NCBI RefSeq assembly: GCF_006539865.1
Contig: NZ_BJNV01000009.1
Span: 1-64,000 of the forward strand
Reading direction: 5' to 3'
Length of the DNA: 64,000 nucleotides
Origin: Zoogloea ramigera
GTDB taxonomy: Bacteria; Pseudomonadota; Gammaproteobacteria; Burkholderiales; Rhodocyclaceae
The notes beneath the pieces were generated by a model, which was not told where the DNA came from, did no database searches, and saw only the letters and a list, made by a program, of their open reading frames with translations. Made by a program: the position numbers and the translations under genes. Of the stretch, positions 9,666 to 13,769 are shown piece by piece (the stretch's first letter is position 1; each line of letters begins with the position of its first letter).

Positions 9666-10034
9666 ATGTCCAAGACCCCCAGCGGCCGCGTCCCGGCCAA
9701 GATCATCAACGAAGACATCCAGGCCTTCCACGGCCTCGGCACCATCCAGGGCTACGCCCCCCACGACCCCGACCTCACCCTCGAGGCCATCACCGCCACC
9801 TACGACGAACTCATGGCCGACCGCGCCGCCCTGGTCCGCGCCCAGATCGCCCTCGACATCATCCGCGACAAGATCGGCAACACCGAGCAACGCTTCCACA
9901 GCCAGATGCGCGGCTCCAAAGACTCCGTCCGCGGCCAGTACGGCGACGACTCCAACGAACTCGCCGCGATGGGGCTGAAGAAAGCCTCGGAGAAAAAGCG
10001 AGGCAGCAGCCGCGGCAAACCGGCGGAGGAGTAA
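9666..10034 (+). CDS. Conserved hypothetical protein, helical, basic C-terminus
   Basis: 122 residues, beginning MSKTPSGRVPAKIINEDIQA. The middle is strongly helical (ITATYDELMADRAALVRAQ) and is followed by a segment of the pattern KDSVRGQYGDDSNELAAMG and a lysine-rich tail (KKASEKKRGSSRGK). I recall similar tails in small uncharacterised bacterial proteins but cannot give a function. AGGAGA lies eight bases before the ATG, and a strong terminator follows 15 bases after the stop, so this looks like a real single-gene transcription unit. The codon use is like the GC-rich chromosome, so it is not part of the integron that follows. Confidence 0.7.
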   Translation: MSKTPSGRVPAKIINEDIQAFHGLGTIQGYAPHDPDLTLEAITATYDELMADRAALVRAQIALDIIRDKIGNTEQRFHSQMRGSKDSVRGQYGDDSNELAAMGLKKASEKKRGSSRGKPAEE

Positions 10035-10048
10035 ATCAAGGAGAAGAG

Positions 10049-10071
10049 GGCGGGCGGAGGCCCGCCTTTTT
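10049..10071 (+). terminator. Rho-independent terminator of the 9666 gene
   Basis: GGCGGGC and GCCCGCC pair across a four-base loop and are followed by five Ts. It should end transcription from the chromosomal side before the integron. Confidence 0.85.
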
Positions 10072-10227
10072 GGGGGGTGAAAGGAGGAAGGTTTGCAGGG
10101 AGTGAGCTAGGACTGCTGTCGGCCAGGAGCGGACGGTCGCCACCCGATTCGGATAGCTGCCATTCTTGCGGAACGGTATGCTCCACTCCTCCTTGCGAGT
10201 GGTTTCTGCTTCTAAACAGTCACTTGC

Positions 10228-10291
10228 AGAAAATGTTATCCGGCATCCCGATTTTATGCGGCAGGACTGTCGCCCTAAAACAAAGTTATGC
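10228..10291 (+). other. attI1-like integron recombination site
   Basis: The last 34 bases, ending in GTTATGC (core site 10285-10291), differ at only four positions from the class 1 attI1 sequence as I remember it, including the diagnostic block CGCCCTAAAACAAAGTT. Similarity continues upstream (ATGTTAT, CGAT-TTAY) with one gap. The recombination point would be between 10285 and 10286. The comparison is from memory, not from an alignment. Confidence 0.8.
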
Positions 10292-10326
10292 CTTCAAGAT
10301 CGCATCACTCACCATAGGAGAAAGAA

Positions 10327-10626
10327 ATGAGCATTCCTGCAACTGGTTGGAAAAATAAGGCTGGCACTGCCGATCGAGGATGCAAGTGCGGCACATGGAA
10401 AGACCACTGGATCAAGTTCGCGAAAAAATCGTGGCCTGCTACCTGCTCGGTACAAAACTGCTCAAGCGCTCCGACGCTTGGTGCTCATGTCATTAATTCC
10501 GCAGTAACCGGCGAGCGGATTGTTCCTATGTGTGATTCATGTAACAAGCTCAGTGGCACATTCACGCTCAAGGGTTCTATTACTGTCCCAAGCGCAAACA
10601 AGTCGGAAACTTGTGAGAAGGCATAA
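10327..10626 (+). CDS. Cassette-encoded small HNH-like zinc protein
   Basis: 99 residues. Visible elements are C19-K-C21, then C40 and C45, the histidine of LGAHVIN (H54), and C69-D-S-C72-N73 in IVPMCDSCNK. Two cysteine pairs flanking a histidine, with a final CxxCN, is the layout of the HNH/treble-clef nuclease fold, although the first histidine of a canonical HNH is not obvious. I infer a nucleic-acid-binding or nuclease role with low certainty. AGGAG lies six bases before the ATG. The TAA stop is inside the inverse core site GCATAAC of the attC, the classic compact arrangement of an integron cassette. Codon use is much less GC-biased than in the flanking genes. Confidence 0.75.
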   Translation: MSIPATGWKNKAGTADRGCKCGTWKDHWIKFAKKSWPATCSVQNCSSAPTLGAHVINSAVTGERIVPMCDSCNKLSGTFTLKGSITVPSANKSETCEKA

Positions 10627-10716
10627 CCCGGCAGTCGAGAGGGACAGCCCAAAGGCTGCGCTTTTGGGTACCCTCCGCGCTTCGCGCTCCGGTTGCCCCT
10701 CACTTCCGCGTTGGGC
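10621..10716 (+). other. attC site of cassette 1
   Basis: A 96-base imperfect inverted repeat from GCATAAC (10621-10627) to GTTGGGC (10710-10716). The inner arms pair as well: the GGCAGTCGAGAGGGACA side faces TGCCCCTCACTTCC with one or two unpaired bases, as in folded attC sites. A further small stem GCGC-TTC-GCGC lies near the middle. Strand transfer would occur between 10710 and 10711. Confidence 0.82.
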
Positions 10717-10780
10717 CACAAGGCTACCGACCCTGAAATGCAGCGCATCCTCAAACAGCAACGAGCAGTAGGGAGGCTCT

Positions 10781-11896
10781 ATGTCTGATGCAATCGGATT
10801 CGAGATTGATTTTCTTCCCGTCGGAAATGGCGAACGCAGCGGGGACGCAATTGCCATTCGCTATGGATCACCCGGAGACTACAAGGTATTGGTGTACGAC
10901 GGTGGCACAAAAGAGTCGGGGCAAGCCCTGGTCGACCACATTAAGAAGTATTACGGCACAACCCGTGTCGACTATGTTGTCAACTCCCATCCCGATTCAG
11001 ACCATGCATCTGGATTGTCGGTGGTTCTCGAGCAGTTGGAGATAGGCGAATTGTGGATGCACCAACCGTGGAAGTACTCCAGTGTGATTCTGGACTATTT
11101 CAAGGATGGTCGAATAACAGACAACAGCCTTGCTGAACGGCTTAAGGACAAGATGGCTGCCGCTTATACGTTGGAACAATTGGCCGAGGAGAAAGGCATT
11201 CCCGTATATGAACCATATCGAGGAGCGACAATCGGAGAGTTTGTCGTCTTGTCGCCCGAAGAAGATTGGTACGTGCATGATCTGATAGCCGAGTTTCAAA
11301 AGTCGCCGGAATCCAAGAAGTCCGAGTCAACCGCGACAGACGGACTTGCTGGAATCTTCGAGGCGGCAAAGAAGGCAGCCGCTAGCGCCGTTGCTTGGAT
11401 TACCGAACACTGGGGCATCGAGTTTCTACGAAATGACGTTCAGACCAGTGCTGAAAATGAAAGCAGCGTTATTCTCTTTGGCCTACTCGATGAGAAAGGA
11501 ATACTTCTCACCGGCGATGCCGGAATTAGAGCTCTCGATGCAACTGCGGCTTTTGCAGAGTCGAAGAAGGTATCGCTTCCGGGCGTTCTGCATTTTGTGC
11601 AGGTACCACACCACGGAAGTCGGAATAACGTTTCCACAACCGTGCTGGACAGAATTGTCGGGCCAAGAAAATCTGCCGATGATGGCGTGACGAGCAAGAC
11701 TGCATATGTTTCTGCGAGCAAGAAGTCCAGCACTCACCCGAGAAAGGTTGTCGTCAACGCATTCATACGACGAGGTGCCAAAGTTGTAGAGACAAAAGGA
11801 CAATCAAAGCGGTATCACCACAACATGCCCGCCCGCGAGGGCTGGGTTCCCGTAACTCCGCTGACATTTTCACAACAGGTAGAGTCATGGGACTAG
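10781..11896 (+). CDS. Cassette-encoded metallo-beta-lactamase-fold protein (ComEC-type)
   Basis: 371 residues. The metal motif is HPDSDH (H70, D72, D74, H75), followed by the ENESSVIL strand, LLTGDAG (D246) and VPHHGS (H277, H278). The series HxDxDH, TGD and HHGS without a separate central histidine is that of the ComEC/Rec2 C-terminal domain, a probable DNase or phosphodiesterase, rather than of a beta-lactamase. There is an insertion of about 60 residues (roughly 160-220) with an alanine-rich helix. GGGAGG lies five bases before the ATG at 10781. Its last ten bases overlap the membrane protein gene, so the two are translationally coupled. A toxin, defence or signalling role is inference only. 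Confidence 0.82.
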   Translation: MSDAIGFEIDFLPVGNGERSGDAIAIRYGSPGDYKVLVYDGGTKESGQALVDHIKKYYGTTRVDYVVNSHPDSDHASGLSVVLEQLEIGELWMHQPWKYSSVILDYFKDGRITDNSLAERLKDKMAAAYTLEQLAEEKGIPVYEPYRGATIGEFVVLSPEEDWYVHDLIAEFQKSPESKKSESTATDGLAGIFEAAKKAAASAVAWITEHWGIEFLRNDVQTSAENESSVILFGLLDEKGILLTGDAGIRALDATAAFAESKKVSLPGVLHFVQVPHHGSRNNVSTTVLDRIVGPRKSADDGVTSKTAYVSASKKSSTHPRKVVVNAFIRRGAKVVETKGQSKRYHHNMPAREGWVPVTPLTFSQQVESWD

Positions 11897-12645
11897 ACTT
11901 CCTTGAGAAACTCACCAACACATATGAACGCAAAGCACGCCTATATCCCGTTTTTCTGTTGCTGGCTCCAGTTGTGATGCTGGTTGTTGGGGTGTACGGT
12001 GTGGCGCTTGAGTTGAAGGCAACCGTCGCCGGAACGCTTGCGACCTTTGGCGTCTTCTACTTGGCCGCGTCTATCGTCCGAGAAAATGGCAAGCGGCTGG
12101 AAGACTCTCTCTTCACGAAATGGGGTGGAAAACCAACGACTCAGATATTGCGGCACGGCAATACTGAGATTGACCCTGTTACAAAGGCTCGATATCACGC
12201 TTTCCTTTCCAAGCACCTCGGAGTTGAATTTCCCTCTAAGGCTTCTGAAGAGAACGATCCAGAGGGCGCAGACCACATATATCAGTCTGCCACCAAGTGG
12301 CTTCTCGATCGAACGCGCGACAAGAAGACATTTGCGTTGCTCTTCGATGAGAACGTTGCGTTTGGGTTTCGACGGAATTGCCTCGGCATAAGGCCATTTG
12401 GAATTGCAGTTTCTGCAATCACATTAGCTTGGTCATTGACCAAGAGCGATGTGATAACCGCTCAAGGAATAGATACTGCTTCCCTTGCTAGCCTGTCGAT
12501 CGGTACGAGCGTTTCGCTGGCAGTGTCCCTCTGCATGCTTTTCGTATGGACATTCTTTGTCACGAAAGAAACCGTCAAGACGGCCGCTTTCGGTTATGCG
12601 CATATGCTTTTTCGGTCCTGCGATGTGTTGCCCAAGAAGAGATGA
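11887..12645 (+). CDS. Cassette-encoded four-helix membrane protein
   Basis: 252 residues. Two membrane helices lie near the N-terminus (about 20-41 and 46-64) and two near the C-terminus (about 171-184 and 205-225), enclosing a soluble region of some 105 residues with charged, helical sequence (SATKWLLDRTRDKKTFALLF). I do not recognise the family. Its layout recalls the small multi-helix membrane effectors found with conflict-system enzymes. The start overlaps the end of the MBL-fold gene by ten bases (ATGGGACTAG), so the proteins are probably made together and may act as a pair. The stop is 13 bases before the attC site. Codon use is low-GC like the rest of the cassette. Confidence 0.75.
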   Translation: MGLDFLEKLTNTYERKARLYPVFLLLAPVVMLVVGVYGVALELKATVAGTLATFGVFYLAASIVRENGKRLEDSLFTKWGGKPTTQILRHGNTEIDPVTKARYHAFLSKHLGVEFPSKASEENDPEGADHIYQSATKWLLDRTRDKKTFALLFDENVAFGFRRNCLGIRPFGIAVSAITLAWSLTKSDVITAQGIDTASLASLSIGTSVSLAVSLCMLFVWTFFVTKETVKTAAFGYAHMLFRSCDVLPKKR

Positions 12646-12658
12646 CCAATGCATTATG

Positions 12659-12725
12659 GTCCAACCCATCATTCCACCGGACCTGCGCGAAAAGCCGCGC
12701 AGGCCGGTGAATTCAGACGTTGAAC
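12659..12725 (+). other. attC site of cassette 2
   Basis: A 67-base site from GTCCAAC (12659-12665) to GTTGAAC (12719-12725), both exact matches to RYYYAAC and GTTRRRY. Inside, ACCGGACCTGCGCG faces CGCGCAGGCCGGT across a short loop (AAAAGC) with a single unpaired base, an almost textbook attC hairpin. Strand transfer would occur between 12719 and 12720. Confidence 0.88.
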
Positions 12726-12750
12726 GACAGCATTCCTCAAAACTCAACGG

Positions 12751-12769
12751 CCGCTTTGGTCGATAGCGG
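12751..12769. repeat. Short palindrome downstream of the last attC
   Basis: CCGCT and AGCGG pair across TTGGTCGAT. An RYYYAAC-like ACTCAAC lies just before it (12741-12747), but no matching GTTRRRY follows, so this may be a broken third attC or a REP-like element. Confidence 0.4.
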
Positions 12770-12818
12770 TCATTAATCGAGGTAGTCTTGTCTGCCCACG
12801 CCGGCCCTCTCCCACGAC

Positions 12819-12844
12819 GTCGGGTCACGCTGCGCTGACCCGAC
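12819..12844. repeat. GTCGGGTCA palindrome (common REP-type element)
   Basis: GTCGGGTCA and TGACCCGAC pair perfectly across CGCTGCGC, followed by CTAC. This matches the widespread proteobacterial intergenic palindrome of the GTCGGGTTA-CGCTGCGC type. It lies between the integron and the beta-lactamase gene and could also act as a transcription barrier for both converging units. Confidence 0.7.
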
Positions 12845-12872
12845 CTACAAAAGCTACAAAAGCCCCGCAGCC

Positions 12873-13769
12873 TCACCCCACAATCCCCCGCACAACCCTT
12901 CCCACCTCCGCCAGCGTCGCGTCCCGCGCGGCGCTGTCCACCGCGCTGTCGGCGAGGTAAGCCGAGACGATCAGCGGCGCGCGCTCGGGTGGCCACACGA
13001 CGCCGCTGTCGTTGGCGTCGCTCTGGAAGGTGCCGGTCTTTTCGCCGACGCGCCAGGTGTCGGGCAGGCCGGCCCGGAGGCGTTTGCCGCCGGTGGTGTT
13101 GCCTTCCAGCCACTTGGTCAGCAGCGCGCGGGAGGCGGCGCTCAGGGCGTCGCCGAGCACCAGCTTGTGCAGATTCATCACCATCGCGCGCGGGGTGGTG
13201 GTGTCCATGGGTTCGTCGGGGTGTTTTACGTTCAGCTCGGGCTCGCGGCGGTCGATGCGCGTGACGCTGTCGCCCAGGGTGCGCAGGTAGGCGGTGAGGG
13301 CGGCGGGGCCGCCGTAGCTGTCAAGGATGAGGTTGGCGGCGGCGTTGTCGCTGGTGGTGATGGTGGCTTCGCACAGCGCCGCGAGGCTCATGCCCGGGTC
13401 GCCCACGTGCCTTTCGGTCACCGGCGACCAGGGGATGATGTCGGCCGGGGTGATGGGGATGCGTCGGTCGAGGGATTCGAGGCCGCGATCCACCCGGTGC
13501 AGCACCAGCGCGCTGGCCAGAAACTTGAAGGAGCTGAGGGTCTGGAAGCGTTCGTCGGCGCGATAGCCGTAGGTGGCGCCATCGGCGGTGTCGAGGACGT
13601 GCACGCCGAGCCGCCCCCGCGCTTCGGCTTCCAGTGTCTGCATCTGGGCGAGGATGCGGGCCTGCAGGGCAGGGCGGGTGCCCTCCGCGCGTGCGTGCCG
13701 GGGTGCGATCCCGGTGCCGAGGGCGGCCGACGACAGTGCCGCGAGGAAGCGTCTTCTTGTAAACATCAT
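12873..13769 (-). CDS. Class A serine beta-lactamase, Tat-exported
   Basis: 298 residues. All class A motifs are present: the SxxK nucleophile block SSFK (S79, K82), SDN (140-142), ExxLN as EPELN (E176, N180) and KTG (244-246, followed by T). The enzyme hydrolyses beta-lactams in the periplasm. The N-terminus MMFTRRRFLAALSSAALG is a twin-arginine signal, less usual than a Sec signal but known in some class A enzymes. GGAG lies five bases before the first ATG. High GC and chromosome-like codon use show it is not one of the integron cassettes next door. I cannot tell which subfamily or substrate spectrum. It has no ampR-like neighbour; the next gene is a TetR regulator 444 bases away, on the opposite strand. 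Confidence 0.92.
   Translation of the reverse strand: MMFTRRRFLAALSSAALGTGIAPRHARAEGTRPALQARILAQMQTLEAEARGRLGVHVLDTADGATYGYRADERFQTLSSFKFLASALVLHRVDRGLESLDRRIPITPADIIPWSPVTERHVGDPGMSLAALCEATITTSDNAAANLILDSYGGPAALTAYLRTLGDSVTRIDRREPELNVKHPDEPMDTTTPRAMVMNLHKLVLGDALSAASRALLTKWLEGNTTGGKRLRAGLPDTWRVGEKTGTFQSDANDSGVVWPPERAPLIVSAYLADSAVDSAARDATLAEVGRVVRGIVG

Follow-up and report, generated by a model that had tools for sequence, protein, structure and literature searches.

An integron reduced to a probably mobile, integrase-less platform in Zoogloea ramigera and its relatives

The chromosomal, pre-clinical class 1 integrons of Betaproteobacteria (PMC5460862, in excerpt), the Tn402-like class 1 integrons and the clusters of attC sites lacking an integrase (CALINs) are the described systems closest to the locus reported here. 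CALINs have been proposed to be degraded or off-target products (excerpts of PMC8618304 and PMC9024848). Integron surveys commonly count intI1, and one PCR for environmental class 1 cassettes uses the primers MRG284/285. In a 64,000-nucleotide stretch of the Zoogloea ramigera draft genome (contig NZ_BJNV01000009.1, positions 1 to 64,000, hereafter the window; genome G000, 4.6 Mb in 207 contigs) we describe an integron that is reduced to a probably mobile platform without an integrase. We hold it to be quite probable that positions 10119-12762 form a complete, bounded, integrase-less unit, the cassettes of which were likely inserted in trans by an IntI1-type integrase, and which likely moves as a block. 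Such a unit would be a satellite of class 1 integrons, keeping the capture site and the cassettes and leaving the enzyme to others: an IntI1-type integrase from elsewhere would insert cassettes at the attI of the unit, and the unit would move between sites in one piece. Other genomes and loci are referred to by G and L numbers.

Borders, attI1-type site and missing integrase

When the copies within the genus are aligned, they share a sharply drawn left edge, YCGGCCANNAGCGG, which in most of them precedes the attI core by 196-216 bp; beyond it the sequences are unrelated. A common right end (GACAGCTTTCCTCAAAGCTCAACGGCNGCATTGGGTCG) follows the last cassette, with 21 matches in 13 of the 23 genomes of the genus and none for a reversed control; in the window it carries the unit to 12762, past position 12725, at which the first-pass annotation of this DNA had let the integron end. 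The left-end motif alone is uninformative, since a 15-base pattern for it matched 15 times in the window genome and its reversed control 25 times. Loose scanning for inverted ends gave nothing useful in this GC-rich DNA, and a weight matrix was used instead. By eye, the two ends would make at best an imperfect pair of terminal inverted repeats (left CGGCC..GCGGCCG, right reversed CGACC..GCGGCCG).

The first-pass annotation had recognised an attI1-like site ending at 10291, and the alignments bear this out. The class 1 attI1 26-mer matches 10266-10291 with three mismatches, a match not seen in any of 100 shuffles. A 61-nt match to a genuine attI1 next to intI1 in another Zoogloea genome (G012, L094) includes both upstream direct repeats, and its local score of 56 compares with a maximum of 24 among 200 shuffles. 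The predicted cut lies between 10285 and 10286. The same alignment bears on an ordinary CALIN, in which an integrase elsewhere would have inserted the cassettes off-target and the attI-like sequence would be a chance or weak secondary site. CALINs are common, off-target insertion is one of their proposed origins (PMC8618304, in excerpt), and like them the window unit has at least two attC sites and no integrase nearby. However, an attI of 61 nt with both direct repeats at this score, together with the same ends and leader in other genomes, makes this explanation very improbable.

Two cassettes with matching boundaries had been noted as well, and the R'' of each indeed pairs at seven of seven positions with the start of its own cassette, wobble allowed. 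A covariance model was then derived from attC sites outside the window (23 sites from other units; 13 base pairs, 96.7% of cells paired). On both strands of the 64 kb and up to E 5 (E-values are rough) it returned only two matches, precisely at the two positions where attC sites had been expected. By a simple stem score alone attC1 would not stand out: it scores 7.2, a level at which shuffles average 5.7 matches per 64-kb strand, compared with 0.07 expected per 64-kb strand at the score of 9 reached by attC2 (30 shuffles). Single-stranded DNA folding is unremarkable for attC1 (bottom strand z -1.5) and strong for attC2 (z -5.7).

An integron integrase is missing, as the annotation had stated: the best match to TIGR02249 in the window genome reaches 23 bits, the cut-off being 265, and an IntI1-type query found nothing at E 1e-3 in the whole genome. 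As in a complete integron, an attI, judged by its sequence match, and attC cassettes are present; an intI next to the attI is found in none of the 34 units tabulated below, nor is there one in the window genome. The strong terminator that had been noted upstream of attI can be read from the sequence as a hairpin with a T-run at about 10045-10072 (it is absent from the list of the terminator scan), where it trails the chromosomal ORF (open reading frame) at 9666-10034; it lies outside the unit. An Rfam scan at gathering thresholds gave one tRNA and nothing else.

Table 1. Features of the integrase-less unit in the window
Feature	Position	Strand	Basis and remarks
Complete unit	10119-12762 (2.64 kb)		left end, leader, attI1-type site, two cassettes, right end
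Left end, consensus YCGGCCANNAGCGG...	10119..10168	+	44/50 against family reference; outside sequence unrelated in other copies
Leader, 148 bp	10119..10266	+	about 65 bp below the 196-229 bp of other listed copies, through an internal deletion
Terminator-like hairpin within leader	10183..10202	+	1 found against 0.2 expected
attI1-type site	10233..10291	+	direct-repeat-like ATGTTAT (10233) and GATTTTATG (10250); L box GTCGCCC (10269-10275); core GTTATGC (10285-10291)
Gene cassette 1	10286..10710	+	cassette logic and attC model
Cassette 1 ORF, 99 aa	10327..10626	+	Cys/His-rich by eye; without Pfam match
attC of cassette 1	10621..10716	+	covariance model 37.9 bits, E 3.9e-6
Gene cassette 2, two ORFs	10711..12719	+	cassette logic and attC model
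Cassette 2 ORF 1, metallo-beta-lactamase fold	10781..11896	+	PF00753 36.8 bits; PADLOC PDC-M48B 432 bits
Cassette 2 ORF 2, 252 aa, hydrophobic stretches by eye	11887..12645	+	without Pfam or PADLOC match
attC of cassette 2	12659..12725	+	covariance model 71.1 bits, E 2.7e-13
Right end (TTGAACGACAGC...CGGCCGCTTTGGTCG)	12720..12762	+	common to other units

The cassette 1 protein has 167 homologues at E<=1e-3, and most of the 120 listed are 95-103 aa long and unnamed. The model matched by the first ORF of cassette 2 is a phage-defence candidate, and its name would suggest a role in defence. The protein of the second ORF has 134 homologues, and relatives of it were found in none of 41 candidate stretches in the genome collection. 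Relatives of this two-gene cassette (10781-12645) with its PDC-M48B-like protein occur on 43 plasmid records, all at less than 60% identity. In the right flank of the unit lies a palindromic repeat, GTCGGGTCACGCTGCGCTGACCCGAC (12766-12848), many copies of which match across the genus. A gene with a class A beta-lactamase fold (PF13354, 148.5 bits; 12873-13769, minus strand) directly adjoins the unit; it is chromosomal and no cassette, since the orthologous locus of G007 has the same stretch at 90% identity.

Recurrence of the unit at unrelated sites

In total 34 units of 0.84-5.6 kb were tabulated, 23 of them with the right end and none with an intI inside. One of the 34, at 7764 in L083, is doubtful, and the unit of L079 starts right at the edge of its contig. 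At least one attC could be chained by cassette logic in 22 of the 34, the doubtful L083 included. For six of the 12 unchained units (L085, L086, L088, L223, L226, L227) the attC model at E<=0.01 adds an attC within the unit or after the attI; it gave none in L074, L092 and L097 and matched only outside the unit in L222, and L084 and L095, where the contig ends just after attI, were outside this search. The window genome itself holds a second integrase-less unit (G000:C2; L003, L078) of 2.0 kb with two correctly chained attCs.

Of 395 genomes across the family, 17 have the attI variant; they represent 8 of 68 genera, and the reversed-pattern control gave none. It was also found in 15 stretches of a named genome collection, the hosts being Zoogloea, Thauera phenolivorans, T. 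propionica, Azoarcus taiwanensis, Diaphorobacter caeni, several metagenome-assembled genomes (MAGs) and a Pseudomonas plasmid contig. Leader plus attI is present in three of 72,556 plasmid records: pYKBR041, which comes from activated sludge in Japan (PMC9499019, in excerpt), and pMRCP1333 and pN260-3, both from human samples in Japan. These plasmid relatives carry blaIMP-1, aac(6')-31 and qacF cassettes; in pN260-3 an IS26 insertion interrupts the leader. The attI-variant pattern had no match in viral contigs, and the plasmid leader had no near match in 20,395 E. coli records.

The same ends are thus present at unrelated sites, in the manner of miniature inverted-repeat transposable elements (MITEs), and left and right ends recur in this way in many genomes and on plasmids. 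The first-pass annotation had left the choice between a decayed ancestral integron and a block of attI and cassettes that had moved, and it is the block that these comparisons uphold. Under decay, the site would once have held an ancestral integron with intI1, of which attI and the cassettes stayed behind when that gene was lost. Zoogloea (G012, L094, 4.3 kb) and Thauera do contain complete intI1 units with the same outer ends and the same attI core. However, the window leader is unlike the region between intI1 and attI1 (162 of 300 shuffles score as high), and the full-length leader of L080 resembles that region weakly at best (6 of 300). Four leaders were searched for an intI remnant and none was detected (best tblastn E 0.38), and the leader is conserved in many copies across the family, with intI inside 0 of 34. 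One shared leader at unrelated sites rules against a single event of decay, and we regard this origin as unlikely.

The first-pass annotation had also suggested comparing sister strains for intI1 at this locus. The sole relative with the orthologous site, G007 (L076, G007:C145), shows no intI1 ancestor: there, left- and right-end-like sequences surround mer-operon-like genes (both by eye), and the attI core is absent. No empty target site was found at the window site or at the sodB flank of the second unit.

Some copies are arranged or filled differently. In L143 (1320-1434) units stand in tandem, a right end being followed by a new left end about 77 bp on, and in T. propionica and T. phenolivorans (flanks of L197/L200; L230) a common tandem-type spacer is seen by eye before intI1 units. 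The plasmids pTX1 (Thauera sp. K11, L250) and pTha01 (T. aminoaromatica, L251) keep the left end together with some 120-130 bp of leader; they match the right end at 34 and 27 of 38 and have a different gene inside. Since inspection by eye shows no attI core in them (and the attC search gave nothing at the threshold used), the left module is not tied to attI.

Probable cassette insertion in trans and proposed movement of the units

The leader and attI of T. propionica and pYKBR041 are identical over 236 of 236 bp (3867-4102 of L034), the match stopping at the left end and just past the attI core, and different first cassettes follow. Likewise, pYKBR041 and pMRCP1333 share 251 identical nt of flank, leader and attI and diverge from the attI cut point, the first cassette being aac(6')-31 or qacF. 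Identical leaders with different first cassettes after the cut point make it probable, as far as can be judged from these sequences, that an IntI1-type integrase acts in trans on the attI of the unit. Two observations argue for such a helper. The aac(6')-31 cassette is 99.8-100% identical between the units of pYKBR041 and pMRCP1333 and the intI1 integron of pN260-3, a plasmid which carries both an integrase-less unit and an intI1 integron. In addition, IntI1-type genes (at least 93% identity) are over-represented in genomes with the attI variant, at 5 of 17 compared with 6 of 378 without it (p 3e-5), and at 4 of 4 compared with 3 of 17 within genus g72, Thauera by inference (p 0.006), p-values that are too optimistic because the genomes are related. 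G273, a genome in one contig, has intI1 at 0.34 Mb and its units at 2.16 and 2.28 Mb. We infer that IntI1 cuts this attI, and likewise the expression of the cassettes and the mode in which the block moves.

Besides the inflated p-values, several observations weigh against a mobile unit served in trans. Among the six Zoogloea genomes of the 17, only G012 has a close IntI1, and the window genome has no match to the IntI1-type query that could represent a helper; because no helper integrase was found there, the window copy is probably idle until one arrives. Neither window 9990-10340 nor the leader of pYKBR041 gave a match in a scan for consensus promoters, and the window leader contains a terminator-like hairpin. 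The right end is missing in 11 of the 34 rows, some through contig ends. Seven attI-like matches without a left end were dropped from the table, among them pN260-3 and the copies in G180 and G076, two of the 17 attI-variant genomes in which no left end was recognised. Finally, inspection by eye of 28 left flanks and 20 right flanks revealed no target-site duplication.

The outer ends are not confined to integrase-less units. A left end of this kind also stands some 125 bp beyond intI1 in the intI1-type integrons of 12 out of 13 loci; these comprise seven chromosomal loci (six distinct flanks, that of L197 being common to L200) plus five backbones of Tn402-like type, and the locus without it, L203, has the most diverged IntI (83%). 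Nine intI loci were re-examined, and all nine have the left end and five also the right end.

The best candidate for the mover, as yet unproven, is a small tyrosine recombinase beside some units, here called Rec206. If it acts at the ends, the units would be satellites of both Rec206 and IntI1, a tentative proposal that is compatible with a block loaded in trans and that we rate at somewhat below even chances. A 206-aa PF00589 (Phage_integrase) protein ends 77-79 bp before the left end in two genera, adjacent to one intI1 unit (L219/L252) and to integrase-less units in Thauera G273 (L221) and Zoogloea G020 (L083, gene damaged). A YCGGCCA border follows 71-79 bp after the gene in eight of eight Rec206 gene ends of at least 83% identity, pRSB223 included and a 33-aa fragment in T. 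propionica left out, whatever comes next. A palindromic preference is visible in the outer flanks: 24 of 28 left flanks have G at -8, and of 20 right flanks, read in reverse, 15 have G at -9 and 16 have C at -7, a few of the flanks coming from related backbones. Palindromic flanks and the lack of duplication by eye would fit a tyrosine recombinase better than a DDE transposase. The adjacency is biased, however, the loci having been chosen for holding units and the border having been selected as the top match within some 150 bp. Moreover, no Rec206 gene is present in the window or L078, and none of nine plasmid relatives (58-72% identity, two of them identical) has the exact motif at that distance, one having it with one mismatch at 75.

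Dispersal by Tn402-type transposition could be considered where a unit lies behind a Tn402-type IRi, at four distinct loci. In pYKBR041 and pMRCP1333 the complete unit with both ends is situated between this IRi and an annotated tniR, and a second inverted repeat follows; the MAG WAS_Bin_15 and G232 have a left side and right flank as in these two plasmids. Outside those four, no IRi was found within four mismatches at any of the scanned loci, the window and L078 included (26 loci with duplicates counted, some limited by short contigs), and the IRi/IRt pair of a Tn402-type class 1 integron is lacking in the window. Transposition of this type is therefore a poor candidate for the general mode of dispersal.

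In a wider and rather doubtful, if possible, scenario, class 1-type integrons as a whole would be cargo of a site-specific mobile system: Rec206 would move intI1 and satellite forms alike, as discrete units with common ends, from one chromosomal site to another and also into Tn402 transposons, at palindromic attachment sites, and IntI1 would load the satellites in trans. Were this true, the Rec206 system would supply the missing link in how the ancestor of the clinical class 1 integrons came off the chromosome, and satellites would already have taken that route, onto plasmids with blaIMP-1.

Comparison with known integron systems

In the literature searched, which was mostly open-access, we found no description of the leader, the integrase-less form or the common left end, the last of which may be in print. 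The right end is already known as a conserved 3' end, since in some units it contains the site of a published primer: MRG285 (sequence from PMC10224954, in excerpt) matches exactly in the right end of L036, L093, L152 and others, and has no exact match in the window. An exact MRG284 site was found neither in the window nor in L034, L035, L036 and the other intI-less units examined, the matches in L225 and L238 belonging to the intI1 integrons of these loci. Counts of intI1 and MRG284/285 PCR would accordingly miss units where no intI1 integron is present. As a capture platform can exist and spread without the enzyme, cassette content and integrase content should be counted separately, and the outer ends common to intI1 and intI-less units offer a testable lead on the mobilisation of chromosomal class 1 integrons.

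A title by Gillings from 2009 reportedly concerns MITE-like structures flanking a class 1 integron. The idea of an integron moved between short repeats is common to that case and ours; there, by the title, the elements flank the integron, whereas in our case the ends are part of the unit itself, with no duplication seen. With Tn402-like class 1 integrons the plasmid units share the position between IRi and tniR, and the left flank of G232 (L234) is the one that carries intI1 units in L216, L217, L218, L220 and L196; in contrast to these integrons, the units have no intI1, and no IRi was found at the window or L078. The chromosomal, pre-clinical class 1 integrons of Betaproteobacteria (PMC5460862, in excerpt) are alike in the attI1-type site, the kind of cassettes and the kind of left and right ends, but the units lack intI, have a different leader and contain no exact MRG284 site. 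CALINs (PMC8618304 and PMC9024848, in excerpt) likewise consist of attC cassettes without a neighbouring integrase; to these the unit adds an attI1-type site, a conserved leader, two defined ends and recurrence as a family.

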